From a virus, in IMG/VR virus record IMGVR_UViG_3300025423_000097, positions 1 to 22,348 of that record: 22,348 bases of DNA; one strand, 5' to 3'. A program made the translations under genes and the position numbers. This document shows, piece after piece, positions 4,716-21,980 of this stretch. Positions within the stretch are counted from its first letter, which is position 1, and each line of letters begins with the position of its first letter. The notes below the pieces were generated by a model that had not been told where the DNA came from, made no database searches, and worked only from the letters and a program-made list of their open reading frames with translations.

Positions 4716-7265
4716 ATGGGTTTGAATCTGTTTAATTTTTTCTCGCCTAATAACCAAACGGCTAGTATGGGGACACAAACCCCCAGCACCGCTTGGCAAG
4801 GTATTGACGGGGCCGCTGAGTTTGTAGCGCCCCAGCGTTTGCGTGATGTTGTTGGTAAGTTAAAAGTTAGCCAATCGCAAAATATTTATGATGCCGACTT
4901 TGAATACGGCGTACAACCTTTGCGTTGGGAAAACTTTATTCAGAATACATCTGGACAAGCTTACATTGTTCAGAATCCTGGTTTGGGTGGCGTATCAATG
5001 AACATTGGTGGAGGTAATACTCCTGGTGATATTACGATTCGTCAAAGCCGTCCTTATCACAGATACCAGCCAGGTAAGACTTTTTACATGGCATCTAACG
5101 TTAACTTTGGTAGTTCTGTTACTGGCCAAACTCAACGTGTTGGTATTTTTGATGATTCCAATGGTATTTTCTTTATGCAGACTGGGCCTACTGGACCTCT
5201 AAATCCAGGAGCTATGTATGTAGTTATTCGTTCTGACTCTGGAAGTAATGGCGTAGTTGATCAGATTATTCCTTGCGAGGCATGGAACGGTAATAAGAAT
5301 ATTATCTATGCACTTGATTGGACTAAAGTTCAAATGATATGGATGGAATATGCTTGGTACGGCGCAGGTGCTCTTCGTTGGGGCGTAGTCCTTAATGGCG
5401 AGCCTTGGGTATTGCATCAAGTTGGTACTGGTAATGGTGTTATTAACGGCGTTGCTCAAGTTAAGCCTTGGAGCCGTACTGGTAACTTGCCTGTTCGTTA
5501 TGAGCAAAGAGATAACGGAAGTAGTACAGCATCATTAATGACTCACTATGGTGTGTCAGTATTGATTGAAGGATCAATTGATAAACAGCGTGGATTTACC
5601 TATTCATATGGTAATGATGCTAAAACTCAAAACCGTTCAGTTCCTGCATCTTCTGTTCGCTATCCTGCAATGTCATTTAGGATGAGAGCTGTTGGTTCTG
5701 ATATTTTTGATCAAAGCAATGCGGCGGCTACGGGTGGATCACCTACGACTTTGACAATTAGCGCGGCTACTCCTTCTATATCTTCTGTAGTAGGACAGCC
5801 AAACAGTGGTCAGGCTTTGGTTACATTTGGTTCTGCTCATGGTTATGCAGTGACTAACCCAGCCAATGCTAATAGCCCAGCTCAGTACATTACTCTTAGT
5901 TCATTTACTGAAGTAGGTACTGTTGCAACTGGAAACTACGCATTCTCTGGAACAACTTTAACAGTTACAACTGCTGTAGCTACTGGAGCTCTTCAAGTTG
6001 GACAAATATTGTCAGGAACTGGTGTTACAGGTTCTCCAACCATTGTTGCTCAATTGACTGCTACAAGTTCTGCTGTGGGTTCACAAGCTTTTGCAAGCGG
6101 TGGCGCAGTTGGATCAAGTGTTGTTGTATTGGCGGCTGGTACATCGTTTGCAGTAGGCCAGTTGTTTGCGGGTACAGGCGTACCAACAGCAACGTACATT
6201 ACTGCGGTTAATGGCGCTACCATTACGATTAATAAGGCATTTACAGCTCAAGCATCTGGCACATATAACTCATATGCACCTGGTGGACTGGGTACTTATC
6301 AAGTTAGCTCTGCACAAACTACTGGTACTGGCACTTTGACCGCCACAACCACATATGCCGCTCAGACTTGGTTAATTCAGCAAGTGCCATCTACAACCAC
6401 AATGATTCTTCCAATTCAATTGTTGACAGGTGTAACAGCCACAACAAATCCAACTGGAACATATTGGGGTGCAAATCAGTGGGTTGGTAAGTTTGTTTAT
6501 TACCAGGCCAGTTTGCCATCTATCAGCGCCATTTCAAATCCTGCATCTGGAACTGTAGCTGGTATTACAAACTACACATCTACAATTACATTTAGCTCTG
6601 TTCATAATTTGAAACAGGGTGATGTAATTATTATTAGCGGATCAACTCCTGCTTACATGAATGGTATTTACTCTGTAACAATACCAACTACAAATCCAAC
6701 TACTACAATTGTGGTTAGCTGGGGTTACTTTGCTTCTGCTCCTGCAAACTATACATCTGGAGCATCTGCTGTATCTCCATACACAGGCCGTATTACATCT
6801 AATACAACCAGTGCAATAACATTTGGTGATGTTGTTACGGGTTTACCATTAGCAAATAGTCCATCATCTGGAAATAACTATCAAATTGGTTTGATTGATC
6901 GCGGTCAATTATTGCCTGCAACATTGTTATTAAATTCATCTGCAACTTGTTTGGTTGAGTTAATTTCAAGTACGCCTACTAACCAATTGTCTTTAAGTCA
7001 AGCAAACTTTGTTGCACTTAACACATTGGGTTCATATAACTCATTTGCTGAGCAAGATTTAAGTGCTACCACTTTGGCTGGAGGTGAGGTTGTGTATGCA
7101 TTCTCAACTCCTCCTAACGGTTTGCAACAGCTTGATTTAAGCAACTTCTTCCCAGTGCTTACCAACATTAAAGGTAACGTAGCCGACATTTTGACGGTTG
7201 CTGTAACTTCTTCTGCTGGTGCTACTGTTCAAATTAACGTTGTTGCACAAGAGGCGATGGCTTAA
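4716..7265 (+). CDS. Large modular virion protein
   Basis: 849 residues. The N-terminal ~330 residues are a coherent, aromatic-rich domain (PLRWENFIQNTSGQAYIVQN; TFYMASNVNFGSS; VQMIWMEYAWYGAGALRWGV; VRYPAMSFRMRAVG), looking like a jelly-roll or beta-sandwich virion domain. From about 335 to 700 the protein is a chain of low-complexity Ser/Thr/Gly/Ala beta modules, including VGQILSGTGVTGSPTIVAQL (about 425) and VGQLFAGTGVPTATYITAV (about 485). The last ~150 residues return to a mixed, less repetitive domain (QIGLIDRGQLLPATLLLN). Ribosome site TAGGAG. Its stop overlaps the next start (TAATG). It is likely displayed on the particle surface; whether on head or tail cannot be told. Confidence 0.7.
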   Translation: MGLNLFNFFSPNNQTASMGTQTPSTAWQGIDGAAEFVAPQRLRDVVGKLKVSQSQNIYDADFEYGVQPLRWENFIQNTSGQAYIVQNPGLGGVSMNIGGGNTPGDITIRQSRPYHRYQPGKTFYMASNVNFGSSVTGQTQRVGIFDDSNGIFFMQTGPTGPLNPGAMYVVIRSDSGSNGVVDQIIPCEAWNGNKNIIYALDWTKVQMIWMEYAWYGAGALRWGVVLNGEPWVLHQVGTGNGVINGVAQVKPWSRTGNLPVRYEQRDNGSSTASLMTHYGVSVLIEGSIDKQRGFTYSYGNDAKTQNRSVPASSVRYPAMSFRMRAVGSDIFDQSNAAATGGSPTTLTISAATPSISSVVGQPNSGQALVTFGSAHGYAVTNPANANSPAQYITLSSFTEVGTVATGNYAFSGTTLTVTTAVATGALQVGQILSGTGVTGSPTIVAQLTATSSAVGSQAFASGGAVGSSVVVLAAGTSFAVGQLFAGTGVPTATYITAVNGATITINKAFTAQASGTYNSYAPGGLGTYQVSSAQTTGTGTLTATTTYAAQTWLIQQVPSTTTMILPIQLLTGVTATTNPTGTYWGANQWVGKFVYYQASLPSISAISNPASGTVAGITNYTSTITFSSVHNLKQGDVIIISGSTPAYMNGIYSVTIPTTNPTTTIVVSWGYFASAPANYTSGASAVSPYTGRITSNTTSAITFGDVVTGLPLANSPSSGNNYQIGLIDRGQLLPATLLLNSSATCLVELISSTPTNQLSLSQANFVALNTLGSYNSFAEQDLSATTLAGGEVVYAFSTPPNGLQQLDLSNFFPVLTNIKGNVADILTVAVTSSAGATVQINVVAQEAMA

Positions 7266-7552
7266 TGTCTACTCCAGCATGGCAACGCAAAGAGGGTAAA
7301 AACCCAAATGGCGGCTTAAATGCTAAAGGTAGAGCTTCTGCCAAGAAAGAAGGGCATGATCTAAAGCCTCCTCAACCAGAGGGTGGCTCTAGGAAAAAAT
7401 CATTTTGTGCCAGAATGGAAGGTATGAAGAAAAAGTTAACTTCAGAAAAGACAGCGCATGATCCTAATAGCCGCATTAACAAAAGCTTGAGGGTTTGGAA
7501 ATGTGCTGATGGATGTGCAATTCGTGGTCTTACAAAAGGCACAATGAGGTAA
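7265..7552 (+). CDS. DUF6321-type small basic protein
   Basis: 95 residues. It starts MSTPAWQRKEGKNPNGGLNA and continues with EGGSRKKSFCARMEGMKKKL and DPNSRINKSLRVWK, the pattern I associate with DUF6321 proteins of phages. The usual family sequence seems to end near KSLRVW; here a tail CADGCAIRGLTKGTMR (80-95) follows. That tail matches the C-termini of the proteins at 8474 and 8681. Highly basic, with Cys in the middle and two in the tail; no membrane segment. Translational coupling to the gene before is indicated by TAATG. Function unknown; a nucleic-acid-binding or virion role is only a guess from charge and position. Confidence 0.75.
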   Translation: MSTPAWQRKEGKNPNGGLNAKGRASAKKEGHDLKPPQPEGGSRKKSFCARMEGMKKKLTSEKTAHDPNSRINKSLRVWKCADGCAIRGLTKGTMR

Positions 7553-7744: not shown

Positions 7745-8227
7745 ATGCCAAGTAAATCAAAAGCACAACATAATTTCATGGAGGCGGTGGCCCACAATCC
7801 AGCGTTCGCCAAGAAAGTGGGAGTCCCGCGTAGTGTGGGGCAGGAGTTCAGTAAAGCGGACACAGGCCGCACATTTAAAAGAGGTGGAGAAATGAAAGAT
7901 CACGAAGCTCACGGGCATCATATGAAAATGGCTCATCATCATTTGCAAATGGCGATGAAACACGGCGGTCACGTCAAAAAAATGGCATCTGGTGGATCAA
8001 CTACTGGTATGCATGGTATTGAAGAGAAAAAAGGCATGACTACAGCCAAGATGAGCAAAGTTACTGAGGGCGGTAGAAAACCACACGGCGAGCACTCTGT
8101 TGAGAAAAAAGGCGCTACAAAAGCTATGATGCCTAAGATGAAGGGCAACACAGTTGGCGATGGACCTTTGTATAACGTTAAAGGCCCAGCTATGAAGCGT
8201 GGCGGTAAAACTCATCACAAGAAATAA
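7745..8227 (+). CDS. Small basic Met/His/Lys-rich protein ('MPSKSKAQHNF' type)
   Basis: 160 residues. The N-terminal ~44 residues (MPSKSKAQHNFMEAVAHNPA, FAKKVGVPRSVGQEF, ADTGRTF) are a conserved head seen in many phage proteins of unknown function. The rest is low-complexity: a His/Met run (HEAHGHHMKMAHHHLQMAMK, about 54-73), glycine-pair motifs (FKRGGEM, KHGGHVKK, MASGG, MKRGGK) and a basic end (THHKK). It appears disordered or metal-binding, with no membrane segment. It opens the run of KKGG-type genes; a 15-base stretch in it (7964-7978) recurs exactly in the gene at 8474. Function unknown. Confidence 0.75.
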   Translation: MPSKSKAQHNFMEAVAHNPAFAKKVGVPRSVGQEFSKADTGRTFKRGGEMKDHEAHGHHMKMAHHHLQMAMKHGGHVKKMASGGSTTGMHGIEEKKGMTTAKMSKVTEGGRKPHGEHSVEKKGATKAMMPKMKGNTVGDGPLYNVKGPAMKRGGKTHHKK

Positions 8228-8236
8228 GGACTAAAA

Positions 8237-8470
8237 ATGTCACATCATCCAGAGCACCACAAGCACGTCCATCCTGCTGGTCATGAGCATCATCATGAGC
8301 ACAAGCACGCAGTTCACCATTTAAAAGAGCATGAGGAAGGTGGACATAAACACCATCATCATCATTATGGTGAGCACGCCGCTGGACATACTAAGCATCA
8401 TGAAACTGTAGAGCACTTGCATAAGCATCAAGCTTATAAGCATGGTGGTCATGTACATCACAAAGGATAA
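8237..8470 (+). CDS. Extremely histidine-rich small protein
   Basis: 77 residues, of which 32 are His, arranged as HH, HHH and HHHHH clusters spaced by Glu, Lys and Gly (HEHHHEHKHAVHH, 16-28; GHKHHHHHYGEH, 36-47). It has no Cys and no membrane segment. It ends KHGGHVHHKG, resembling the GGHVKG end of its neighbour at 8474. Ribosome site AAGGAC. Such density of His would bind Ni, Zn or Cu in vitro and would make charge pH-dependent; the biological role is unknown. A coding origin is supported by a clean start, tight spacing (9 bases after the previous stop, 3 before the next start) and similarity of end motifs to neighbours. Confidence 0.75.
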   Translation: MSHHPEHHKHVHPAGHEHHHEHKHAVHHLKEHEEGGHKHHHHHYGEHAAGHTKHHETVEHLHKHQAYKHGGHVHHKG

Positions 8471-8473
8471 ATC

Positions 8474-8677
8474 ATGCCAATGCCACAAATGACTATACGT
8501 CCTCCTATGGCTGGAAAGATGCCTGTTAGACCAGGAATGGCGGCGGCTCGTCCAGGAGGTATGATGAAAAAAGGTGGTATGGCTCATCGCTGTCACGAAC
8601 GTGCTGATGGTTGCGCTGAAAAAGGGCACACCAAAGGCAAAATTGTGATGTGTGGTGGCGGTCACGTCAAAGGATAA
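8474..8677 (+). CDS. Small Met/Pro/Gly-rich protein with 'ADGC' C-terminal motif
   Basis: 67 residues. The N-terminal third is Met/Pro/Arg-rich (MPMPQMTIRPPMAGKMPVRP), then a KKGG motif (MMKKGGMAH, 30-38), then RADGCAEKGHTKGK (43-56) and a short Cys/His/Gly tail (CGGGHVKG). Cys40, Cys47 and Cys60 together with His38, His41, His52 and His64 could make a metal site, though no standard zinc-finger spacing is present. Ribosome site AAAGGA, lying within the end of the preceding gene. Function unknown. Confidence 0.7.
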   Translation: MPMPQMTIRPPMAGKMPVRPGMAAARPGGMMKKGGMAHRCHERADGCAEKGHTKGKIVMCGGGHVKG

Positions 8678-8680
8678 ATC

Positions 8681-8956
8681 ATGGCTACAAAAGATGCTGG
8701 AGCTGGTAGAGGCTTTGTAAATCCTCAACGCACTGACGAATCAGATGCAGATTATGTTTCACCTAAAGATCGTTACGATATGGAAAAACAACGTAACGAA
8801 CAAAAAACCCAAGAGAAGACCAATACTGCCGCACAAGAGGCTAGTAAAAACATGAAAAAGGGTGGCAAGGTTAAGCATAAAATGTCTAAGGGCGGTGCAT
8901 CACACCGTGCAGACGGTTGCATTGAACGCGGCCATACCAAAGGACATATGCGATGA
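8681..8956 (+). CDS. Small charged protein with KKGG and 'ADGC' motifs
   Basis: 91 residues. The first ~55 are hydrophilic and probably helical (DYVSPKDRYDMEKQRNEQKT), followed by NMKKGGKVKHKMSKGG (about 57-72) and the C-terminal HRADGCIERGHTKGHMR (75-91). The same tail ends the proteins at 7265 and, with an extension, at 8474. The start context is CAAAGGATAAATCATG, identical over 16 bases to that of the gene at 8474. Its stop overlaps the next start (ATGA). Function unknown. Confidence 0.7.
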   Translation: MATKDAGAGRGFVNPQRTDESDADYVSPKDRYDMEKQRNEQKTQEKTNTAAQEASKNMKKGGKVKHKMSKGGASHRADGCIERGHTKGHMR

Positions 8957-9162: not shown

Positions 9163-9413
9163 GTTTATTAAATATTATTGAAGAAAAAGCTGAATACTTG
9201 CTTAGCGAGCTTAAAGTTCGTGCGGTACAACAGCAAAGAGATCATGGCCATATTGCAGATGATCTTCAAGAGATTATTGACGGTTTAGAAAATTATGTTG
9301 TAGCACCTGTTAACAATGTTATTTTTGAGCCTGTAATTGAAGTTGTAGAAGAAGTGCAACTTGTTGCACCCACTCCTGTTGCTGTAACATTAACTTGTGT
9401 AGCTCCTAAATAA
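9159..9413 (+). CDS. Small protein, helical N-terminus, function unknown
   Basis: 84 residues. The first ~45 form a charged helix (EEKAEYLLSELKVRAVQQQR), the rest is Val/Pro-rich (VIEVVEEVQLVAPTPVAV). Coupled to both neighbours: ATGA at the start, TAATG at the end. Its 3' part contains copy 2 of the 16-bp near-palindrome, which encodes VQLVA. No recognised domain. Confidence 0.65.
   Translation: MSLLNIIEEKAEYLLSELKVRAVQQQRDHGHIADDLQEIIDGLENYVVAPVNNVIFEPVIEVVEEVQLVAPTPVAVTLTCVAPK
9354..9369 (-). repeat. Dispersed 16-bp near-palindrome, copy 2
   Basis: GTGCAACTTGTTGCAC on the + strand, identical to copy 1 and in the same orientation. It lies inside the gene at 9159, in the frame giving VQLVA. 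Distance from copy 1 is 5594 bases. Confidence 0.85.
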
Positions 9414-10363
9414 TGGCTACTACTTCTGGTTCTTCCGCGTTTAATCTTCAGTTAACTGATGTTATAGAGGAGGCTTATGAGCGCGTTGGAGTTGAAGTAA
9501 GAAGCGGTTATGACGTAAGGACTGCTAGGCGTTCTCTTAATTTATTGTTTACAGACTGGGCCAATCGTGGTCTTAATATGTGGACATTTGAGCAGGACTA
9601 TATCCCTCTTGTTCAAGGTCAGCCTACATACGCATTGCCCGATGACACAGTAGATATTATTGAAAACGTCATTAGAACTAATGCAAATGTGGCCAGTAAC
9701 CAGGCCGATTTAACAATTACGCGTATTAGTATTGATACTTATGCTACCTTGCCTAACAAGTTAAATCAAGGAAGACCTATTCAGGTTTGGATTCAGCGTT
9801 TAACGGCTAATAATCAACCTACAAGTAATGCAATTTCGGCCGCTATTGGTACGACAGATACCACTATAGCTGTAAATTCTCTTATTGGTTTACCAAATGC
9901 AGGTTGGATTACGTTAGATTCCGAGTTAATTGGGTATAACGAAGTGCAACCAGCCGCAAATGGCAACCCGCCTTACCTATTAAACTGCACTAGAGGCCAG
10001 CAAAATACAACTGCGGCATCTCATGCTTTGGGTGCTCCTATCATTTTGTCTCAAAAGAACAGTATTACTGTATGGCCAACGCCTGATTCAGCCGCAAGTT
10101 ACCAGTTTGTGTACTGGAGACTACGCAGAATGCAAGATGTTGGTAATGGAGTCAACATAATGGATGTGCCATTCAGGTTTGTAAACTGTATGGTGTCTGG
10201 TTTGGCTTATTATTTATGTTTAAAAGTACCAGATGGGCTAAATAGACTACAAATACTTAAGCAACAATACGATGAATCCTGGGATTTGGCTTCAACAGAG
10301 GACAGAGAGAAGGCTTCTTTACGGTTTGTGCCGCAGAGAATGTATATTGGTGGTGGAACCTAA
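9413..10363 (+). CDS. Neck / head-tail connection protein with inserted module
   Basis: 316 residues. The N-terminus (TDVIEEAYERVGVEVRSGYD; RTARRSLNLLFTDWANRG) and the C-terminus (DVPFRFVNCMVSGLAYYLCL; LNRLQILKQQYDESWDLAST) are helical, while the centre is beta-rich. This resembles tail accessory or adaptor proteins of the P22 gp4 / podovirus neck type. Residues about 139-212 are a recognisable extra module (AIGTTDTTIAVNSLIGLP; GWITLDSELIGYNEV; LLNCTRGQQNTTAASHALGA) of a kind found in many unrelated phage proteins. Coupled by TAATG to both neighbours. It would sit at the portal to retain packaged DNA or seat the tail. The neck assignment is by resemblance and position. Confidence 0.65.
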   Translation: MATTSGSSAFNLQLTDVIEEAYERVGVEVRSGYDVRTARRSLNLLFTDWANRGLNMWTFEQDYIPLVQGQPTYALPDDTVDIIENVIRTNANVASNQADLTITRISIDTYATLPNKLNQGRPIQVWIQRLTANNQPTSNAISAAIGTTDTTIAVNSLIGLPNAGWITLDSELIGYNEVQPAANGNPPYLLNCTRGQQNTTAASHALGAPIILSQKNSITVWPTPDSAASYQFVYWRLRRMQDVGNGVNIMDVPFRFVNCMVSGLAYYLCLKVPDGLNRLQILKQQYDESWDLASTEDREKASLRFVPQRMYIGGGT

Positions 10364-11028: not shown

Positions 11029-11340
11029 ATGAAGACAATGGTTAAACCAACCAAAAAGAATAGCCCATCTATTCACAGGGCAAAAGATGTTCACAATGGT
11101 AACGCTGATGAATATTCCCGTCCTCACACAATGAGCGGCAAAAACATTAGTCCCAAGACTGATTCTTTTGTTCATACAGACCCTAATACGCTTAATGCGA
11201 AACAACAAGGCCGTTTGACAGGTACATTGCGCGTTAGCATGGGTGATCCTGGTGCTAATGATGTTAAGACTGATGGTATTAAGATGCGTGGAGCTGGAGC
11301 GGCTGAGCGTGGCTTTATGTCCAGAGGCCCAATGGCATGA
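11029..11340 (+). CDS. Small basic protein with 'DGIKMRG' C-terminus
   Basis: 103 residues; strong ribosome site GGAGG. Low in hydrophobics, rich in Lys, Asn, Gly. The last 24 residues (KTDGIKMRGAGAAERG, then FMSRGPMA) are a phrase I recognise from other aquatic phage proteins and resemble a Cys-less variant of the 'ADGCxxRGxTKG' ending. The stop overlaps the adaptor start (ATGA). Function unknown; its fixed place just before the adaptor gene suggests a virion role. Confidence 0.7.
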   Translation: MKTMVKPTKKNSPSIHRAKDVHNGNADEYSRPHTMSGKNISPKTDSFVHTDPNTLNAKQQGRLTGTLRVSMGDPGANDVKTDGIKMRGAGAAERGFMSRGPMA

Positions 11341-12449
11341 GTTTAGATTACTCTCAGCTTTCTCAGTCAATACAGGACTATCTACAGAACTACGAAACCA
11401 CTTTCGTAGCGGATATTCCTACGTTTGTTGAGCAAGCTGAGCAAAGAATCTATAACACGGTTCAATTTCCATCTTTGCGTAAGAATGTTACGGGCGTTTT
11501 GACGGCTTATAACCCATATTTAGCTTGCCCTACAGACTTTCTTGCGCCGTATTCTTTAGCTGTTTATACGACTGCATCTGCTACTGCAACTGGCACTGCT
11601 GGTACATATACAATTACTACATCAGGAACTGTTACAGGTAACATCCAGATTGGACAATATGTGACTGGAACAGGTATAGGTTCTAGTGCTTATGTCACAT
11701 CGGTATCTGGAACTACGGTTTATTTATCTGTGGTTAATGCTAACAATGTTAGCGGCACAATTAATTTCCAAGGGCAGTATAACTACTTGCTTAATAAAGA
11801 TGTTAACTATATGCGTGAGGCATTTCCATTGCCTAATTATTACGCTACGCCAGGATATTACGCGCTTTTTGGGCCGTCTGTGGTAAGTTCAGCGCTTACA
11901 AATAATCTATCATTTATTGTTGGTCCTACGCCTGATATTGGGTATAGTGCAGAGATGCATTATTACTATTATCCTGTTTCTATTGTGCAATCTGCTGTTA
12001 ATGTAACTAGCATTTACACGGCTGGATCGGGATATACAAATGGTACATATTACAACACAGCTTTAACAGGCGGTACTGGAAGTGGTGCAAAGGCTGATAT
12101 TGTTGTATCTGGAGGGGCTGTAACATCGGTCACAATGAGTACAAATGGGTCTTATTTTGCTGTAAATGACTTGTTATCAGCATCTATTCCAGGTGGTACA
12201 GGATTCCAATTGCAAGTTAGTTCGGTAAATAACCCAACGGGAACAAGCTGGCTGGGTCAGAATTTTGATTCTGTTTTACTATATGGTTCACTTGTAGAGG
12301 CATATACGTTTATCAAGGGAGAGCCTGATTTGATAGCTCTTTACGATAAAAAGTATAACGAAGCATTGGCAATTGCAAAACGTCTTGGAGATGGTATGGA
12401 GCGTCAAGATGCATACAGATCGGGACAATATAGACAGGCGGTTACATAA
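11337..12449 (+). CDS. Head-tail adaptor protein (SU10-adaptor-like) with two inserted modules
   Basis: 370 residues. The two ends together make the adaptor fold: N-terminal LDYSQLSQSIQDYLQNYE and IPTFVEQAEQRIYNTVQFPS, the central YLLNKDVNYMREAFP, then NLSFIVGPTPDIGYSAEMHY, and the C-terminal helices VLLYGSLVEAYTFIKGEPDL and YDKKYNEALAIAKRLGDG. Two extra blocks interrupt it: about 84-147 (a module with IQIGQYVTGTGIGSSAYVTS) and about 222-298 (SIYTAGSGYTNGTYY; GAKADIVVSGGAVTSVTMST). Such adaptors attach to the portal and carry the tail. Overlaps the next start by TAATG. The insert boundaries are by eye. Confidence 0.75.
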   Translation: MSLDYSQLSQSIQDYLQNYETTFVADIPTFVEQAEQRIYNTVQFPSLRKNVTGVLTAYNPYLACPTDFLAPYSLAVYTTASATATGTAGTYTITTSGTVTGNIQIGQYVTGTGIGSSAYVTSVSGTTVYLSVVNANNVSGTINFQGQYNYLLNKDVNYMREAFPLPNYYATPGYYALFGPSVVSSALTNNLSFIVGPTPDIGYSAEMHYYYYPVSIVQSAVNVTSIYTAGSGYTNGTYYNTALTGGTGSGAKADIVVSGGAVTSVTMSTNGSYFAVNDLLSASIPGGTGFQLQVSSVNNPTGTSWLGQNFDSVLLYGSLVEAYTFIKGEPDLIALYDKKYNEALAIAKRLGDGMERQDAYRSGQYRQAVT

Positions 12450-12892
12450 TGGCTTTTCAACAAGGTGCAACAACCAGTTTCAAAGTCCAGCTTGCTCAAG
12501 GCTTGCACAACTTTGGCCCTACAAGTCCAAATACTTTTTACATTGCTTTATTTAATGGATCGGCAACGCTTGGGCCATCAACAACGCAGTATGTATCTGG
12601 TTTGACGGGTGAAGTTGTTGGTACTGGGTATACGGCTGGTGGTCAGGCGTTGACAATTAGTACAACGCCAACATCTGGATCAACGGGCGGCACGGTAGGG
12701 TATTGGTCTTTTAATGATGCTATTTGGAGCCCTGCCGCCTTTACTGTTAGAGGCGCATTGATTTACAATGCAAGTCAAAATAACGCTTCTGTTTGTGTAT
12801 TGGATTTTGGTAGTGATAAAATTTGTTCTAACTCATTTACTGTTCAGTTCCCAGTTGCTGGGTCTACAACAGCCATTTTAAGGATTGCATAA
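12449..12892 (+). CDS. Virion structural protein, paralogue A
   Basis: 147 residues (MAFQQGATTSFKVQLAQGLH; TFYIALFNGSATLG; GEVVGTGYTAGGQALTIS; ALIYNASQNNASVCVLDFGS; FTVQFPVAG). Ser/Thr/Gly-rich beta protein typical of phage tail or baseplate components. The central and C-terminal parts match the protein at 13087 in motif order (EV.GTGY.AGG, YN.SQ.N, FG, F...MP/FP), so the two are paralogues flanking a 63-residue gene. Function in the particle unknown. Confidence 0.7.
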   Translation: MAFQQGATTSFKVQLAQGLHNFGPTSPNTFYIALFNGSATLGPSTTQYVSGLTGEVVGTGYTAGGQALTISTTPTSGSTGGTVGYWSFNDAIWSPAAFTVRGALIYNASQNNASVCVLDFGSDKICSNSFTVQFPVAGSTTAILRIA

Positions 12893-13086: not shown

Positions 13087-13566
13087 ATGGCAAATCAGCA
13101 ATCAATGTGTACTTCTTTTTTAGGTGAGTTATTGAGTTCAACTCATAACTTTAGTTCCGCTAATCCTGCGCATACGGCTAACACGGCTGATACGTTCAAG
13201 GCGGCTTTGTATGTTACGACTGCTACAATGAATGCGTCTACTACTGCGTACTCTGCTACCAATGAAGTATCTGGTACTGGATATTCAGCAGGCGGGGTGA
13301 CAGTAACAAATGCAACCAATCCAGCATCTACAAACTCATCTACTACGGCGGGAGTAGGGTATTGGACACCATCCGCAAGTATTATTTATTCAAGTGTAAC
13401 ACTATCAACTGCATTTGATACGATGCTTCTTTATAACTCATCACAGAGTAACAAGGCGGTAGCTGTATACACGTTTGGTTCACAGACCATTACGGCTGGA
13501 AACTTTACATTAACAATGCCATCTAACACGACTACAACTGCATTAGTTCGTTTGTCTACAACTTAA
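13087..13566 (+). CDS. Virion structural protein, paralogue B
   Basis: 159 residues; start context AGGATAAATCATGG. Contains TFKAALYVTTATMNAST, NEVSGTGYSAGGVTVTN, DTMLLYNSSQSNKAVAVYTF and AGNFTLTMPSNTTTTALVRL, the same order of motifs as paralogue A at 12449. A beta-rich, uncharged protein likely to form part of the tail or fibre base. No signal peptide. Confidence 0.7.
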   Translation: MANQQSMCTSFLGELLSSTHNFSSANPAHTANTADTFKAALYVTTATMNASTTAYSATNEVSGTGYSAGGVTVTNATNPASTNSSTTAGVGYWTPSASIIYSSVTLSTAFDTMLLYNSSQSNKAVAVYTFGSQTITAGNFTLTMPSNTTTTALVRLSTT

Positions 13567-13575
13567 AGGTAGTGT

Positions 13576-14502
13576 ATGGCTCTGCAAGTAGCTGATAGAG
13601 TCCAGGTTAACAGTACATCGTATACGACAAGTAGTTTTACGCTTGGGTCTGCGCTTACTGGTTTTCAAAGTTTTACTGCTTTAACCAGCGGTAATACGAC
13701 CTATTACGCCGCAACGGATACGGTTGGTAACTGGGAGGTGGGCTACGGCACATATACGACTGGCGCTCTTGCCAGGACAACGATACTGGCTTCTAGCAAT
13801 TCTGGATCGGTGGTTACGTTTAGTGGTACGGTTTCTATATTTATTACTTACCCCGCTGAAAAAGTTGTAATACAAGATACAAACGGCAACGTTAATATAT
13901 TAACTTATGTATCTAATGCTACTACTACGATTGGTACGTTAAATGTAGGAACGAGCGGGTATAGTGTTTCTACTACTGGTCAGCTTGCAACTTTTTACGG
14001 CACAGATACCACTTGGTCAAATGTAGTTTTACAGAATAATAATGGTGGAAATACATCTTATGCTTCCTATGTAACTACTGCAAATAACTATTCATCCGTC
14101 TATATGGAGATGGGAACAAACAGTTCCACTTATAGTTATTCAGCGGCGGGATACGGAAATAATGCGGCTAATGCCGCAAACGCTAACTTTGTTGAGTCAG
14201 TTGGTTCCGATTTAGTACTAACAACATATGGTTCAAATGCAATTCATTTTGTTGTCAACTCAGGTAATACGGGCACAACAACTGATTCTTTAACCATTAG
14301 TACGGCTGGTAACGTCACTACGCCCAACCAGTTGCAGGGGGCGGAACTTGTTGCTTCTAATGGTATATTTGTAAATAATTTAACAATAGGAACAAGTTAT
14401 ACAATTCCAACAGGGTATTCTGCTCATTCTGTCGGGCCTGTTACTTTGAGTAATGGCGTTTCAATAACTGTGCCTAGTGGCTCACGTTGGTTGGTGTTCT
14501 AA
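13576..14502 (+). CDS. Fibre-type structural protein with 46-residue tip domain
   Basis: 308 residues. The N-terminus (MALQVADRVQVNSTSYTTSS; TGFQSFTAL; TVGNWEVGYGTYTTGALART; TVSIFITYPAEKVVI) is a module I know from phage tail proteins, probably the part that attaches to the particle. The middle is Asn/Ser/Thr/Gly-rich (NNGGNTSYASYVTTANNYSS). The last 46 residues, with LTIGTSYTIPTGYSAHSVGP and ITVPSGSRW, align without gaps to the end of the protein at 15352 (26 of 46 identical). It is probably a trimeric fibre or fibre-base protein. Confidence 0.68.
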   Translation: MALQVADRVQVNSTSYTTSSFTLGSALTGFQSFTALTSGNTTYYAATDTVGNWEVGYGTYTTGALARTTILASSNSGSVVTFSGTVSIFITYPAEKVVIQDTNGNVNILTYVSNATTTIGTLNVGTSGYSVSTTGQLATFYGTDTTWSNVVLQNNNGGNTSYASYVTTANNYSSVYMEMGTNSSTYSYSAAGYGNNAANAANANFVESVGSDLVLTTYGSNAIHFVVNSGNTGTTTDSLTISTAGNVTTPNQLQGAELVASNGIFVNNLTIGTSYTIPTGYSAHSVGPVTLSNGVSITVPSGSRWLVF

Positions 14503-15342
14503 ATGTTTGGGTACGCCGCCTTTGCCCAGTCTCCTTTTGCAACTTTAGGCACGCCCGTTGTTTATGTAGCTCTTACAGGAGTTAACGCATCTGGTCAGAC
14601 GGGAATGGCATCTTCTAATCCAACAATATCTTTAACAGGTGTTAATGCGGCGGGATTAACGGGTACTTTAGCGCCATCTAATTCCGTAGGTTTAAGCGGA
14701 GTTAATGCATCAGGATTTACGGGAGCTATTACTCCTGGTACATCAATAGCAATAACAAATGTATTTGCATCTGGATTTGTTGGTAATACCACAGCCAATA
14801 TCACGGTTTCAATTACAGGCGTTATTGCATCTGGTTTAACAGGTACAGTATCCCCAGTGCAACAAGTTGCACTTAGCGGGGTTTTAGCATCTGGATTTAC
14901 GGGTACGGTATCGCCTAATGGTGCGGTCAATTTAAGCGGCGTATTTTCTAAGGGGCTTACGGGTACAGTTACTCCAAGTACGACTGAAGGGGAGACAGGA
15001 GACTCTGCGACTGGTAATGTTGGAACCGTAGTACCGAATTTAGTAATTACGCTGACAGGAATAAGTGCCAGTGGTTTGGTTGGGTCTATACAAACAGGTA
15101 AGTCAGCGTTTATTACTGGTGCAAGTGCGGCGGGATCGGTTGGTACTGCGGCTCATTCTACGAGTTTAACTTTAGCTGGAGTACAAGCATCTGGATCTTT
15201 AGGAGCATTAGGTTTTACATATTGGAGTGTAATTAATGACAATCAAACTCCATTGTGGCAAAATGTAGGAACTTCTCAAACACCTAATTGGACGCAAATT
15301 GATGATAGCCAAGCGCCAAATTGGACTAAGATTACATCATAG
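14503..15342 (+). CDS. Tandem-repeat fibre-like protein (eleven 20-residue repeats)
   Basis: 279 residues. After a 20-residue head (MFGYAAFAQSPFATLGTPVV), residues 21-240 are eleven consecutive repeats of exactly 20 residues with the pattern 'vxLtGVxASGxTGTxxPxx' (for example TISLTGVNAAGLTGTLAPSN, QVALSGVLASGFTGTVSPNG). Repeat 8 is the most diverged. The C-terminal part (245-277) is three 11-residue units of another type (NDNQTPLWQNV, GTSQTPNWTQI, DDSQAPNWTKI). No gap breaks the period. Such regular repeats suggest a beta-helix or fibrous shaft; the Trp repeats could bind a ligand or cap the fibre. The gene starts right after the previous stop, with a weak ribosome site, and lies within the fibre array. 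Confidence 0.7.
   Translation: MFGYAAFAQSPFATLGTPVVYVALTGVNASGQTGMASSNPTISLTGVNAAGLTGTLAPSNSVGLSGVNASGFTGAITPGTSIAITNVFASGFVGNTTANITVSITGVIASGLTGTVSPVQQVALSGVLASGFTGTVSPNGAVNLSGVFSKGLTGTVTPSTTEGETGDSATGNVGTVVPNLVITLTGISASGLVGSIQTGKSAFITGASAAGSVGTAAHSTSLTLAGVQASGSLGALGFTYWSVINDNQTPLWQNVGTSQTPNWTQIDDSQAPNWTKITS
14563..15222 (+). repeat. Tandem 60-bp repeat, eleven units
   Basis: Eleven in-frame units of 60 bases encode the 20-residue repeats of the gene at 14503. Units are diverged at the DNA level, though pieces such as GCATCTGGATTTACGGG recur almost unchanged. Constant period with diverged DNA suggests old duplication kept by selection on the protein. Confidence 0.8.
14857..14872 (+). repeat. 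Dispersed 16-bp near-palindrome, copy 3
   Basis: GTGCAACAAGTTGCAC, the reverse complement form of copies 1 and 2. It spans the junction of repeat units 5 and 6 of the gene at 14503 and encodes VQQVA. Other units do not carry it. Distance from copy 2 is 5503 bases. Confidence 0.85.
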
Positions 15343-15351
15343 GGGTTATAA

Positions 15352-16239
15352 ATGTCCGTAACGTATTCAACAAATTTACAGCTTGTAGAGCCCGTTGTTG
15401 GCTCCGAGTCTGGTACTTGGGGTTACGACATTAACTATGGAACTACCGATTATATTGACATAGCCATAGCTGGAACTAACAATATTACTACAGATGCGGA
15501 CATTACGCTTACCCAGACGGTTGGTAATAGCTCAGGAAATAACATTGTTAGCACAACGGCGCAGTATGCTCAATTACTCTGCACTGGCGCGCGTACTGCC
15601 AATAGGAATATAAACGTACCCAATGCGAGTAAGATGTATGTGGTTAACAACTCCACAACTGGCGGGTATAGCATTACAGTTAGAGGTGTAACAGGACCAA
15701 CAACTGGGGTAACAGTTTACAACGGCGAACAGGCTATTGTATTTTGGAGCACTGTGGCTGGTGACTTTATCAAAACATCTTCTTTTGGTGGTACTGCCGC
15801 ATTGCTTTTGCCTGTAGGAACGACCGCACAAGAGCCTGCTAGTCCGATAGAAGGGATGATCAGATACAACTCTACTACGAAGCAATTTGAGGGCTATAGC
15901 GAGGTTGCAAGCGTACCAGGGTGGTATTCTGTAGGTGGATCAAGTATAAGCAATGACACGGCATCCACGACCGCTTATTACCCGTTATTTGCTCATGCAA
16001 CAAGTGGCACTGCACAGGTTGTTTACACATCTAATACGCAGTACACATTTAAGCCTAGCACGGGCGAATTAACATCACCAGTCCATATTTCATCAAACGG
16101 CTTTATGATTAATGGTACAACCGTATCTACAAGCTATACGATAGCGTCAGGCAACAACGCATTCTCAGTCGGCCCAGTTACAGTGAATACGGGTGTATCA
16201 GTAACAGTCAGCTCAGGTCAGCGCTGGGTAGTTGTGTAA
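15352..16239 (+). CDS. Fibre-type structural protein with 46-residue tip domain
   Basis: 295 residues. The N-terminal part (YSTNLQLVEPVVGSESGTWG; ISVT-like beta strands; ARTANRNINVPNASKMYVVN; GEQAIVFWSTVAGDFIKTS) resembles phage proteins with a virion-attachment head. The middle has AQEPASPIEGMIRYNSTTKQ then FEGYS, a phrase common in phage and fibre proteins. Residues 250-295 (TSYTIASGNNAFSVGPVTVN; VTVSSGQRWVVV) are the tip domain shared with the protein at 13576. Ribosome site AGGGG. It probably forms part of a tail fibre or spike. Confidence 0.7.
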   Translation: MSVTYSTNLQLVEPVVGSESGTWGYDINYGTTDYIDIAIAGTNNITTDADITLTQTVGNSSGNNIVSTTAQYAQLLCTGARTANRNINVPNASKMYVVNNSTTGGYSITVRGVTGPTTGVTVYNGEQAIVFWSTVAGDFIKTSSFGGTAALLLPVGTTAQEPASPIEGMIRYNSTTKQFEGYSEVASVPGWYSVGGSSISNDTASTTAYYPLFAHATSGTAQVVYTSNTQYTFKPSTGELTSPVHISSNGFMINGTTVSTSYTIASGNNAFSVGPVTVNTGVSVTVSSGQRWVVV

Positions 16240-16253
16240 TATAAAGGATTAAT

Positions 16254-17171
16254 ATGAGTTCAATTGCATCAGGAACAACGACAACGACAGGCTTAGTATA
16301 TACGTCTGATACAACAGGTAATCTAGTTTTACAAACTAATGGTACGACTACTGCGGTAACAATAGATACAAGTCAAAACGTAGGTGTAGGAGTTACGACA
16401 GAAACTTGGAGTTTAGGAAAGGCAATAGAAGTTGGGAGTAATGGAAATTCTTTATGGGGAGCTGGTTCTGGAAATGTTCTTTTAGGGTCTAACTTTTATT
16501 ACAACAGTGGATATAAATATGCTGCATCTTCTGTAAATGCTTCTTATTATCAGCAATATCAAGGATCTCATTTTTGGAACGTAGCTACATCTGGAACAGC
16601 GGGTAGCACTATCACATTTACCCAAGCAATGACGCTTTCGAATACTGGCATTTTAAACGTCACAGGCACAAGCTCAGGTTCAGTTCAATGTGATACTGTA
16701 ACTTCTGGTGGCAATTCTGAATTTCAATTGCGTAGAGCAAACGTGGCACGTTGGTTTTTTTGGAATGAAGCCTCAACAAATCGTTTGAACATTACTCCTG
16801 CTTCGTTTGCGTCTGGCGTTTCTCTGACAGATACTGGAACATCATGGGCTGCATATTCTGATAGACGAATTAAATCCAACATTGTTGACCTTGATCTTGG
16901 ACTGTCCACTGTGCTGGCAATTAAGCCCCGGCGCTATACGTTTACAGCAAACAGTACAGAAGACATTGGTTTTATTGCTCAAGAACTAAAAGAAGCATTG
17001 CCAGAAGCTGTTGTTGGGCAAGAGATTGAGTTTGATGAAGCTGACACCGACAGAGAAAAATCTGCAAAACTCTTAAGTGTTACAAGGGACACACTCATCC
17101 CTGTGTTGGTCAAAGCCATCCAAGAACTATCCGCAAAAGTAACAGCTTTAGAAGCAAAGGTAGGAGCATAA
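16254..17171 (+). CDS. Tail fibre with S74-type intramolecular chaperone domain
   Basis: 305 residues. The N-terminal ~195 form a Ser/Thr/Gly/Asn-rich fibre shaft and binding region. The C-terminal ~104 residues are a Peptidase S74 (intramolecular chaperone auto-processing) domain: SDRRIKSNI with S202 and K207 as the expected Ser-Lys dyad, then LAIKPRRYTF, DIGFIAQELKEALPEAV, and a final coiled helix (AIQELSAKVTALEAKVG). In known members this domain trimerises, helps the fibre fold and then cuts itself off at that Ser. Cleavage here would leave a mature fibre of about 201 residues. Ribosome site AAAGGATTAAT. The S74 call is strong; the binding target is unknown. Confidence 0.85.
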   Translation: MSSIASGTTTTTGLVYTSDTTGNLVLQTNGTTTAVTIDTSQNVGVGVTTETWSLGKAIEVGSNGNSLWGAGSGNVLLGSNFYYNSGYKYAASSVNASYYQQYQGSHFWNVATSGTAGSTITFTQAMTLSNTGILNVTGTSSGSVQCDTVTSGGNSEFQLRRANVARWFFWNEASTNRLNITPASFASGVSLTDTGTSWAAYSDRRIKSNIVDLDLGLSTVLAIKPRRYTFTANSTEDIGFIAQELKEALPEAVVGQEIEFDEADTDREKSAKLLSVTRDTLIPVLVKAIQELSAKVTALEAKVGA

Positions 17172-17172
17172 C

Positions 17173-18282
17173 ATGGCAACATACGGACAAATAAACGCTG
17201 AGAACATAACCAGTTCAACTGGTGGGGTAATAAGCCCAAACATTACATCATTGCGTAATAGGATTATTAATGGTGCGATGAGTGTAAGCCAATACAATGG
17301 AACAAGTAGTGTAAATATTGGAACATCAGGTGCTGGTTCTCAATATGCCATAGATCGTTGGAATTTTGACTTTAGCCAAGCTCCTAAACTTTCTGCACAA
17401 CAAAGTACTAATGCACCGACAGGATTTTATAATTCTTTGCTTGTTACTTCTCTTGCCGCAACAACAATAGGAACAAGTGACTATTTTCAAGTTAATCAAA
17501 AAATAGAAGCATTTAATACGACAGACCTTGCATTTGGTACTGCTAATGCTCAATCTGTTACTTTATCATTTTGGGTTTATTCATCACTTACTGGATCATT
17601 TAGCGGTGCGTTAAAAAACTCTGCTCAAAGTCGTGCTTATCCATTTAGTTACACAATATCTTCTGCAAGTACTTGGACGCAAATATCAATAACTATACCT
17701 GGTGATACATCTGGCACTTGGATTGTAGGCACAAATGGAATCGGGCTTACTGTAAATTTTGACCTAGGAATTGGAACAACTTATGTTACTACTGGAGGGG
17801 CTTGGGCTTCTGGTAACTATGGTGGAGTAACTGGCTCTGTAAATTTGGCGGCAACTAATGGTGCTACATGGTATGTGACTGGTGTGCAATTAGAAAAAGG
17901 AGCACAAGCAACATCTTTTGATTATCGTCCTTATGGTACTGAGTTGGCTTTGTGTCAGAGGTATTATTTTCAAAATACTGGATTAGCCAGTACTACAACT
18001 AATTTTGGAAGTGCAACATCAATTAGTGCTACTCAAGCTTATATACAAGTTCCATTTCCTGTATCAATGAGAACTGGGCCAACAATTAGTTATGGAGGAA
18101 CTGTAAATGTTAGTGATTCAAATACTTATGATTTAGCAATATCTGCAATTGTTACCAATCAAAGTAATACAAACTATGGATCTGGAAAAGTTACTACAGC
18201 ATCAGGTCAAACGCTTTACAGACCTCAAACATTGTGGGTAAATTCAACAGCAAGTTTCCTTGCATTTACAGCGGAGTTATAA
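17173..18282 (+). CDS. Probable receptor-binding fibre protein
   Basis: 369 residues. The N-terminus contains SLRNRIINGAMSVSQYNG and YAIDRWNFDF, a start motif found in many phage and prophage fibre proteins. The middle (VTLSFWVYSSLTGSFSGALK; YTISSASTWTQISITIPGDT; TWYVTGVQLEKG, about 235-243) looks like a carbohydrate-binding jelly-roll, followed by TSFDYRPYGTELALCQRYYF. The last ~100 residues form a separate beta domain. No S74 domain; it lies between the two S74 fibre genes. Good candidate for the protein that binds host surface sugar. Start has GGAGC upstream. Confidence 0.72.
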   Translation: MATYGQINAENITSSTGGVISPNITSLRNRIINGAMSVSQYNGTSSVNIGTSGAGSQYAIDRWNFDFSQAPKLSAQQSTNAPTGFYNSLLVTSLAATTIGTSDYFQVNQKIEAFNTTDLAFGTANAQSVTLSFWVYSSLTGSFSGALKNSAQSRAYPFSYTISSASTWTQISITIPGDTSGTWIVGTNGIGLTVNFDLGIGTTYVTTGGAWASGNYGGVTGSVNLAATNGATWYVTGVQLEKGAQATSFDYRPYGTELALCQRYYFQNTGLASTTTNFGSATSISATQAYIQVPFPVSMRTGPTISYGGTVNVSDSNTYDLAISAIVTNQSNTNYGSGKVTTASGQTLYRPQTLWVNSTASFLAFTAEL

Positions 18283-18283
18283 G

Positions 18284-18493
18284 ATGTACAAATTAGGTGA
18301 ATTAAATCGTAATGAAACTAGCCCTACAGCGGTGATTCGTATTTTGGATAAAGCCTGTATACCCTTTTCACCAGACAACACAGACTACCAACAATTCGTC
18401 CGTGATATCAAAAATGGTGTGGAATTAAAAGATGCAGAGGGCAATCAAATGACACCTGAGCAAATCACAACATTCTTGGAGACATTACCATGA
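18284..18493 (+). CDS. Small fibre-associated protein (assembly-protein-like)
   Basis: 69 residues from ATG 18284, just after the TAA of the gene before; an in-frame ATG at 18260 lies within that gene and is less likely. Sequence: LGELNRNETSPTAVIRILDK, IPFSPDNTDYQQFVRDIKNG, LKDAEGNQMTPEQI, TLP. The 'DNTDYQQFV' phrase resembles the 'NxDYQxYLxW' segment of small proteins coded next to tail fibres, some of which are assembly chaperones. Its stop overlaps the next fibre start (ATGA). The chaperone role is inference from resemblance and location. Confidence 0.6.
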   Translation: MYKLGELNRNETSPTAVIRILDKACIPFSPDNTDYQQFVRDIKNGVELKDAEGNQMTPEQITTFLETLP

Positions 18494-19704
18494 GTATAGT
18501 ATTAGATGGAACAAATGGTGTTACCACCAACTCAGGTACAGTAGTATCTACAACAGATGCGACAATTAATGGAATAACAGTAGGTAAGGGCGGTGGTTCA
18601 AATACTTACTCAACTTCAGTTGGGGCAAATGCAGGTGCGGCTACTCAAACAGTTGGATACAATACTGCAATAGGTTATCACGCCCTTCAAAGTGTAACAA
18701 GTGGTTCTGACAATATTGGTGTTGGGTACAATGCATTAGGTGGTTTAACAACTGGAAATACTAATGTTGCCATTGGTGATTCATCTTTACTATCAAATTT
18801 ATCAGGCTCAAGTAATATTGCTGTTGGTCAACAAGCTCTGAATGCTAATATAGCATCTTATAACGTTGCAGTCGGTTATCAAGCAGGATATACACAATCA
18901 AATTCTGGTGCATCTTATAACACTTATGTAGGAAACCAAGCGGGATACGGGGTAACTTCAGGAACTCAAAATTGTTTCTTTGGTGTTGGTGCAGGATATA
19001 GTATGACTTCTGGTTCATACAACGTAATTATTGGAAATTATTCAGGAAACCAAAATGGCTTAGATATTAGGGCAAACGGTGGCTTATCTGGAGCAAATAT
19101 TGTTTTATCAGATGGAAATGGAATTATTGGGATGTACGCAAGTGTTGGAGCTAGTCCTAGAGTAGCTTTTCCTTTAGGATCTACTTTAGGAGCAACATCT
19201 CAAGGTTTTGATATATACCAAGATCCTTCTTATATATATATACAATCATATTCTAGTAAACCATTAAAAATAAATAATGCAGGTAATAACGTATACATTG
19301 CTCAAGCATATGCAAACACCACAAGCAATGCTGCAAATATGTATGTTGACAGTAGTGGATTATTGTATCGTTCAACATCATCTGAAAAATATAAACAAAA
19401 CATTCAAAATGCAAATTTTGGACTTGCGGATGTATTAAAACTTCGTGCAGTTACTTATCAGTCAAGGCCAACATTTATAAAAGACGATAAAGGTAATGAA
19501 ATTGCAAATCCCGTTGATACAAATACTCACGCAGGATTTATTGCTGAAGAAGTTGATGCCGCAGGTTTAAAAGAATTTGTTGTTTATGGGGATGACGGGA
19601 AACCAGATGCTATACATTATGGAAATATGGTTTCTTTAATGGCTTCCGCAATCCAAGAACTTTCAGCAGAAGTAACGGCACTTAAAGCCAAGGTAGGAAT
19701 ATGA
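18490..19704 (+). CDS. Tail fibre with YadA-like repeats and S74-type chaperone domain
   Basis: 404 residues. After a short head (LDGTNGVTTNSGTVVSTTDA), residues ~56-190 carry about eight repeats with 'NxAxGyxAg/l' (YNTAIGYHALQSV, NIGVGYNALGGL, YNVAVGYQAGYT, NTYVGNQAGYG), the pattern of the YadA head left-handed beta-roll. A shaft follows, then the S74 domain from about 297: SSEKYKQNI (S297 and K302 match the dyad of the fibre at 16254), THAGFIAEEVDAAGL, AIHYGNMVSLMASAIQELSA and VTALKAKVG. Local sequence is AT-rich and includes a TATATATATATA run at ~19231-19242. Trimeric fibre that should self-cleave on maturation. Confidence 0.82.
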   Translation: MSIVLDGTNGVTTNSGTVVSTTDATINGITVGKGGGSNTYSTSVGANAGAATQTVGYNTAIGYHALQSVTSGSDNIGVGYNALGGLTTGNTNVAIGDSSLLSNLSGSSNIAVGQQALNANIASYNVAVGYQAGYTQSNSGASYNTYVGNQAGYGVTSGTQNCFFGVGAGYSMTSGSYNVIIGNYSGNQNGLDIRANGGLSGANIVLSDGNGIIGMYASVGASPRVAFPLGSTLGATSQGFDIYQDPSYIYIQSYSSKPLKINNAGNNVYIAQAYANTTSNAANMYVDSSGLLYRSTSSEKYKQNIQNANFGLADVLKLRAVTYQSRPTFIKDDKGNEIANPVDTNTHAGFIAEEVDAAGLKEFVVYGDDGKPDAIHYGNMVSLMASAIQELSAEVTALKAKVGI

Positions 19705-21141: not shown

Positions 21142-21532
21142 AATAGAAGCCCGTACAAGGGCTTTTGTGGTTGTGATGGTAACTCTGATACTATTCTTTA
21201 TAGTAGTTACTCTAATTTACAGCGTCATGTTTGTAAGCCAGCCAATCAAAGCTATGGCTCCGATTGACCAAGCATTTACCAAGATGCTAAATGACATTGT
21301 GTTATTAATTGTGGGTGGTATAGGTGGCATTATGACTAAAGGTTTGACCAATGAGGCAAAGGCTATGATGGATAATGTCAAAGCTGGTAAAGATGCGTAT
21401 GTAGCTCCAAAGGTGGAGACTATTATGATGGGATCAGGTTGGACAGCGCCGCCAAAGCCAACCAGTGGACCTACTTTAGAAGCGGATCATGAGCGCGAGC
21501 GCATGGCACAAGCAAGGGCTGAGAATGTTTAA
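21080..21532 (+). CDS. Two-span membrane protein of the lysis block (TTG start)
   Basis: 150 residues from TTG 21080; GGAGAAG lies 5-11 bases upstream and no ATG or GTG occurs before the conserved-looking ADEIEARTRAF. The start is inside the lipoprotein gene (62 bases overlap). Span 1 is FVVVMVTLILFFIVVTLIYS (about 29-48), span 2 the shorter IVLLIVGGIGGIMTKG (about 73-88). The C-terminus is soluble and Pro-rich. It could be a holin, antiholin or other lysis regulator. The stop overlaps the i-spanin start. Confidence 0.6.
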   Translation: MKELLLLLLTPNSNPRLTADEIEARTRAFVVVMVTLILFFIVVTLIYSVMFVSQPIKAMAPIDQAFTKMLNDIVLLIVGGIGGIMTKGLTNEAKAMMDNVKAGKDAYVAPKVETIMMGSGWTAPPKPTSGPTLEADHERERMAQARAENV

Positions 21533-21980
21533 TCCCTGGGTTATTATTGGCGCTATTGCCACATTTATAGGAGTATATTTTTATGGACATCATGCAGGCT
21601 ATCAACAACGTGTGGACGAAGATCAAGCAGAAATTATCAGACTTAATGGAGAAGCTCGCGCCAAAGAAGCCGAGTTAAACCAAAAGATTGTGGTTGCAAG
21701 TACGGCTTTACGAAAGGCAAAAGATGATATTAAATCCAAGCAAGATAGTATTAATTCTCGTATTGATGCTGGCGAGTTGCGCCTCCCGTCCAGTTGTGCC
21801 GTACAAGCCGATCCAAATTCCCCCGCTGGAGATAGAGACAAGGGAAGCGAATCTGACAGACAGGCTATTAAAGATATTGTCTCCATCGCCGCAGAAGGGG
21901 ACTTTGCAATCACAGACCTCAACGCCTGTATTGCCCAGTACAACAATGTTAGGGAAATAGTTAATAAAGGTGTGAAATGA
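21525..21980 (+). CDS. i-spanin (Rz-like inner-membrane spanin)
   Basis: 151 residues from ATG 21525; an in-frame ATG at 21489 would add 12 residues inside the gene before and is less likely. One N-terminal span (WVIIGAIATFIGVYFYGHHA, about 4-23) is followed by a periplasmic coiled coil (EAELNQKIVVASTALRKAKD) and a C-terminal part with two Cys (SSCAV, NACIAQY). This is the build of Rz, which joins the inner membrane to the o-spanin and fuses the membranes in the last step of lysis. The strongest support is the o-spanin gene nested in another frame within it. Stop overlaps the endolysin start (ATGA). Confidence 0.85.
   Translation: MFNPWVIIGAIATFIGVYFYGHHAGYQQRVDEDQAEIIRLNGEARAKEAELNQKIVVASTALRKAKDDIKSKQDSINSRIDAGELRLPSSCAVQADPNSPAGDRDKGSESDRQAIKDIVSIAAEGDFAITDLNACIAQYNNVREIVNKGVK
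21724..21960 (+). CDS. o-spanin (Rz1-like lipoprotein), embedded in the i-spanin gene
   Basis: 78 residues, wholly inside the i-spanin gene in a different frame. ATG 21724 has AAAGG about 7 bases upstream; an earlier in-frame ATG (21688) would put extra residues before the signal. Signal residues 1-18 (MILNPSKIVLILVLMLAS) end in the lipobox LAS-C19. The mature part is Pro-rich (RPVVPYKPIQIPPLE, 22-36), as in Rz1. After export it would be lipid-anchored in the outer membrane and bind the i-spanin across the periplasm. Fully embedded Rz1 genes are known from lambda and others. Confidence 0.87.
   Translation: MILNPSKIVLILVLMLASCASRPVVPYKPIQIPPLEIETREANLTDRLLKILSPSPQKGTLQSQTSTPVLPSTTMLGK

Follow-up and report, generated by a model that had tools for sequence, protein, structure and literature searches.

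A repeat gene lies at positions 14503 to 15342 (+ strand) of a 22,348-base virus record, the whole of which was analysed and is referred to here as the window. Its 279-residue product combines an aromatic head, an array of 20-residue units, and a Trp tail. The gene is co-directional with its neighbours, adjoins a fibre-type gene, and keeps this setting in most relatives, which places it in a tail-fibre cluster. The features that frame the locus are as follows.

2851-3753: major head protein match
4716-7265: match to a head/packaging virion protein
11337..12449, + strand: SU10-adaptor family protein, conserved further upstream
12449..12892, + strand: phrog_644 family protein, function unknown, often found upstream of the TGV-repeat gene
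13087..13566, + strand: second phrog_644 family protein
13576..14502, + strand: fibre-like neighbour with a MALxxADRV N-terminus, ending in SVGPVTLSNGVSITVPSGSRWLVF; its stop codon is immediately followed by the repeat-gene ATG
14503..15342, + strand: whole repeat gene (279 residues; head, repeat array, and Trp tail)
14503..14550, + strand: aromatic head, residues 1-16 (MFGYAAFAQSPFATLG), with aromatic residues 2, 7, and 12 each followed by Gly/Ala
14572..15231, + strand: eleven 20-residue units, consensus [LI]TGVxASGx[TV]GT[V]xPxxx[ST][VI]x
15223..15339, + strand: Trp tail with W at residues 241, 252, 263, and 274, a homologue of the tail found in SITEN-repeat relatives
15352..16239, + strand: downstream fibre-type gene, N-terminus ...SGTWGYDIN, with a weak PHROG tail-fibre match
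16254..17171, + strand: fibre with a Peptidase_S74 chaperone domain, in the same cluster
17173-18282: fibre-type gene
18490-19704: fibre-type gene with Peptidase_S74

The Peptidase_S74 domain was detected at 16254-17171 and 18490-19704 and not in the repeat ORF, and the fibre-like gene at 13576-14502 has no PHROG match of its own. No tape-measure match was obtained among the ORFs scanned from the head gene to the lysis gene, from which we infer a short tail. In phage SU10, the long tail fibres are carried by the adaptor (PMC9509320). In the window, the SU10-adaptor family is represented by two genes within one short segment (9413-10363 and 11337-12449). Promoter and terminator scans near the repeat gene remained at shuffled level, and no RNA families were found within the window. 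The ORF at 14595-14930 on the opposite strand, a mirror of the repeats, was taken as spurious.

Anatomy and conservation of the repeat protein

The array occupies residues 24-243 and consists of eleven units of exactly 20 residues each, without insertion or deletion. A sequence-only reading of this DNA had described eleven such units followed by three Trp repeats, and both parts of that description are confirmed. The spacing of 11 between W241, W252, W263, and W274 delimits three 11-residue units and supports the earlier proposal of a second repeat type; as W241 falls inside unit 11, the two types overlap by three residues. Self-identity of the protein reaches 0.376, 0.358, and 0.370 at lags of 20, 40, and 60, compared with a maximum of 0.207 in a residue-shuffle control (2000 shuffles, lags 2-60). 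Over the 55 pairs of units, mean identity is 38% at the amino acid level and 48% at the nucleotide level (63% for the best nucleotide pair), and the third base is the same in 43% of cases where residues are shared. Given this divergence of the DNA, recent tandem duplication of the units was ruled out and the regularity must be old.

Two alternating strand stretches and two Gly turns can be read in each unit. Gly is present at unit positions 8 and 11 in 11/11 units and at position 3 in 10/11, in keeping with the alternation of beta strand and Gly turn that had been proposed. The 220 residues of the array include 38 Gly, 34 Thr, 31 Ser, and 25 Ala, with charged residues limited to two Lys, two Glu, and one Asp, besides one His and no Arg. 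Comparison with a close relative (L006) over 241 codons revealed 30 amino acid changes and no indel (dN 0.076, dS 0.296), all located in the array and 23 of them at unit positions 12-20. The corresponding dN/dS of ~0.26 gives no sign of diversifying selection.

No credible known family was retrieved for the repeat protein, the best E values being 0.023 in Pfam (below the cut-off), 0.38 in PHROGs, and 0.48 in NCBIfam; none of these three collections gave a lectin-like match. Likewise, no credible solved relative was found in the PDB by sequence, with the best hit of the A1 profile (7uvk, E 0.0046) taken as compositional. Two scans of bacterial and archaeal genome contigs yielded no confirmed relative. 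A Foldseek search of a viral library returned uncharacterised phage proteins in its top rows (best A0A6J7WHS8, E 1.6e-3, 27% identity). In the open-licence literature, which was the part searched, neither a description of the repeat protein nor virion proteomics or a structure for any family member was found.

A modular family with two unrelated arrays

A similarity search with the repeat protein returned 80 loci, five of which are close (L002-L006, 83-100% identity). Most of the others carry an MFGYAAFAQ N-terminus and the Trp tail, but their array is built on SITENxNxADSxTITAQFA, also with a period of 20. Proteins with TGVxAxGxxGTV arrays were added from many contigs by pattern-seeded scans, one of which required the motif TGVxAxGxVGTV, and class proportions in the resulting collection are not population frequencies. 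Greedy clustering at 80% identity grouped at least 166 distinct proteins into 131 clusters. Among the matches listed, a strict aromatic head (aromatic-G/A-x3, three times) was recognized in 113/131 clusters and a looser form in seven more, compared with 2.4% of shuffled N-termini, while Trp residues of the tail were spaced by 11 in 355/369 cases. The relatives share a three-part design of aromatic head, repeat array, and 11-residue Trp tail. The number of array units varies, as does that of the Trp units, with none to six chained Trp counted among the matches listed; L004 and L006 differ from the protein of the window by 22 residues, equivalent to two Trp units.

Alignment of the TGV and SITEN class profiles with hhalign matched the Trp tail alone (E 1.3e-10). 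Among ORFs from 285 sequences, 159 contained at least three TGV motifs and 49 contained at least two SITEN motifs, with none carrying both. Homology of the two arrays was rejected on these grounds: two unrelated 20-residue arrays sit between the same head and a homologous Trp tail. The parts also occur separately. An MFGYAAFAQ head without array or Trp tail is found in L061 (5392-5751), L066, L068, L070, and L076-L080, where it is joined to a short, non-repeat, charged, and probably helical sequence, and the aromatic head is a module of its own. The Trp tail is a separate module as well, since L081 (2281-6129) encodes a 1282-residue protein that lacks the head and matches query residues 241-277.

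The genomic setting was compared by applying regular expressions to adjacent ORFs, with a fibre-type gene defined by an SGTWGxxTN or MALxxADRV N-terminus and a start no more than 90 bases downstream. Among the matches listed, such a gene directly follows in 110/131 clusters: 37/40 in the SITEN class, 32/33 in the 20-class, 38/53 in the 22-class, 3/3 of the clusters labelled "other", and 0/2 of a helical variant. Contig ends account for three misses in the SITEN class and four in the 22-class, leaving 11 clusters of the 22-class without this neighbour. A phrog_644-type protein was located directly upstream in 31/33 clusters of the 20-class and 25/53 of the 22-class among the matches listed; it was absent from this position in all 40 SITEN clusters listed, and the phrog_644 link is therefore not general. 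In the window, the two fibre-like genes that flank the repeat gene (13576-14502 and 15352-16239) both end in the module SVGPVTxxxGVxVTVxSGxRWxV. The same RWxV module terminates the gene directly upstream in 12 of the 40 SITEN clusters among the matches listed.

Three database entries belong to the same family, all annotated "hypothetical protein": gp68 of Pelagibacter phage HTVC023P, WJZ48131.1 of Phage DSL-LC04, and a protein of Caudoviricetes MW202675. The DSL-LC04 gene, with units of 22 residues, directly precedes an "intramolecular chaperone" gene, and gp68, whose best lag is 22, directly precedes a "putative tail protein" and provides a relative in a cultured phage. The HTVC023P study reports pelagiphages with curli genes, including repeat-fibre CsgA/B (PMC9599517). 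The family is widespread in aquatic phage contigs and uncharacterised; common as it is, its tested members have no credible Pfam, PHROGs, or NCBIfam profile match and no solved relative by sequence.

The length of the unit had been regarded as constant despite divergence. This stands for the ORF at 14503-15342, whereas among relatives a length of 20 is not universal and gives way to 22. Spacings were counted in those TGV clusters that have three or more single-step spacings, 69 in all among the matches listed. There, the commonest period is 22 in 40 clusters, 20 in 24, 21 in three, 23 in one, and 24 in one, and a single value holds throughout in 31/69. Within the same set, 79.8% of spacings equal the commonest of their protein, compared with a mean of 61.1% and a maximum of 65.3% in 2000 shuffles. 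Frequent loss of the period among relatives, which had been named as grounds for abandoning the earlier interpretation, was not found; in these 69 clusters the period is mostly constant within a protein. For SITEN clusters, the best lag is 20 in 42/43 among the matches listed.

The period is thus mostly fixed within a protein and changes mainly in even steps between proteins. Pooled over the matches listed, the spacings number 1 of 17, 6 of 18, 117 of 20, 37 of 21, 248 of 22, 3 of 23, 22 of 24, and 1 of 25 residues; since those of 21 are not rare, parity is a tendency. Positions 1-13 follow the same pattern in units of 20, 22, and 24 residues, and the extra residues of the longer units fall between position 13 and position 1 of the next unit. 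When units of the 22-class are aligned on their glycines, hydrophobic residues alternate along the second strand stretch (13, 15, then 21 and the next position 1). We read the even steps as a strand lengthened by in-out pairs, which would retain the inward-facing side chains.

Predicted fold and candidate functions

Structures were predicted for single chains from alignments of 37 and 36 rows, hand-picked from relatives. For the AlphaFold2 monomers, mean pLDDT is 47.1 (repeat protein) and 47.3 (a SITEN relative), with no residue reaching 70, and in both models strands recur every 20 residues. Each adopts, at low confidence, a parallel beta-helical geometry in which every 20 residues complete a coil, so the earlier suggestion of a beta-helix with one coil per unit stands as the geometry of a monomer model whose confidence is low. 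Since structure predictors readily turn regular repeats into solenoids, this geometry supports the fold without proving it. Against the PDB, Foldseek assigned E values above 0.1 to the matches of either model, which were mostly parallel beta-helices for the repeat protein and parallel beta-helices plus other solenoids for the SITEN relative. On realignment, the repeat-protein model scored Z values of up to 18.7 against solved beta-helices over ~220-249 residues (7c7d: Z 17.8, rmsd 2.7 over 222).

The modelled geometry, with three strand segments per coil, resembles that of phage tailspikes (HK620, 4xkv; Acinetobacter phage vB_ApiP_P1, 6e1r) and pectinase-type enzymes. In contrast to these proteins, with which it has no sequence similarity, the repeat protein consists of near-regular, short 20-residue units, no enzymatic insertions were seen, and its model is of low confidence. 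The RTX-type antifreeze protein MpAFP (3p4g) is, like the models, a regular beta-solenoid with a short coil. It gave the best geometric match to the SITEN-relative model (Z 23.1, rmsd 2.5, 240 residues) and also aligned with the repeat-protein model (Z 15.6, rmsd 3.6, 233 residues), at 5% identity in both alignments and with no Ca-binding repeat consensus shown.

We give an even chance to the repeat gene product serving in the tail-fibre apparatus of a short-tailed phage as a rigid beta-solenoid component, bearing in mind that membership of a fibre cluster does not by itself make a gene product part of the virion. The fold, oligomeric state, virion location, and binding partners of the protein are ones that we infer. 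In the parallel beta-helix so envisaged, each unit would supply one coil, with turns at Gly3 and Gly11-Thr12, positions 1, 4, 6, 10, 13, and 19 packed inside, and positions 12-20, the most variable, forming the exposed side. The array would then act as a shaft, longer or shorter according to its coil count. The aromatic head may dock on the tail or on a neighbouring fibre, and the Trp tail would lie at the distal end and bind either a surface glycan or a subunit of a fibre.

The low confidence of the monomers also fits an array that folds only as a homotrimer, an intertwined triple-stranded beta shaft to which each unit adds one strand-turn-strand step per chain; the monomeric beta-helix would then be an artefact of single-chain prediction. 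Peptidase_S74 chaperone domains belong to trimeric fibres, and their presence in neighbouring fibre genes, along with the two strand stretches and two Gly turns per unit, favours such a shaft. The repeat gene itself, however, lacks an S74 domain, and monomers of both repeat types give a self-consistent parallel helix geometry. Triple beta-spiral shafts of the adenovirus type, which likewise place strand-turn-strand units between a docking and a distal end, have a 15-residue repeat, in contrast to the period of 20 or 22 here. We consider the trimeric shaft rather unlikely. A largely disordered, flexible, and elastic Gly/Ala/Val/Thr-rich linker would agree with the low pLDDT throughout and with the composition of the array, but diverged units that keep a fixed period and invariant Gly positions, alternating hydrophobics, few charges, and period changes mainly in even steps make it very improbable.

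Variation in the number of Trp and array units, including the two-unit difference from L004 and L006, and the clustering of changes relative to L006 at positions 12-20 would suit a protein that is chiefly an adhesin, its Trp tail or variable array face binding a host glycan or receptor and its repeat number tuning avidity or reach. Against this, the comparison with L006 bears no mark of diversifying selection, the Trp tail is kept across otherwise unrelated arrays, and lectin-like matches are lacking; we judge an adhesin to be improbable. A protein produced in the cell to act at the host surface, in the manner of phage-borne curli, rather than as part of the virion is scarcely credible. Curlin (CsgA/B) units are strand-turn-strand elements of ~22 residues, similar in length to those described here, and curli genes are reported from pelagiphages of the HTVC023P group; yet the repeat gene sits in a structural fibre cluster, and neither its ORF nor six relatives gave a Pfam curlin match at E up to 1.

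Returning to the beta-solenoid component, a broader proposal is possible, though on the doubtful side: short-tailed phages of aquatic environments may share a modular rod with one aromatic docking head and one Trp tail, the space between them filled by either of at least two evolutionarily unrelated solenoid arrays of 20-residue coils. Coil length would be constant per rod, with two-residue steps mainly between rods; the coil geometry may follow from the shared ends, and the number of coils would serve as a ruler of length for the fibre apparatus. With hundreds of diverged units, two period classes, few mixtures, and two unrelated repeats flanked by the same ends, the family amounts to a natural experiment on beta-solenoids. 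It allows two ideas to be tested: that the alternation of side chains quantises coil length, and that coil pitch is dictated by capping ends.

Several further genes of the window were noted. The ORF at 98-535 matches a GroES-like co-chaperonin (phrog_3188, E 2.9e-7); Roseobacter phage CRP-901 likewise has an annotated co-chaperonin GroES close to its head genes. Among consecutive small basic ORFs lying between the head and adaptor genes are those of a small His-rich protein (8237-8470, approximately one-third His) and its His/Lys/Gly-rich neighbour (7745-8227). Three small ORFs (7265-7552, 8474-8677, and 8681-8956) have a common C-terminal motif, approximately RADGCxxRGHTKG, that looks like a duplicated short Cys/His motif. 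An Rz-like spanin (21489-21980) encloses, in another frame, an ORF with a lipoprotein-like start (21688-21960, LVLMLASC), which corresponds to an Rz/Rz1 arrangement.
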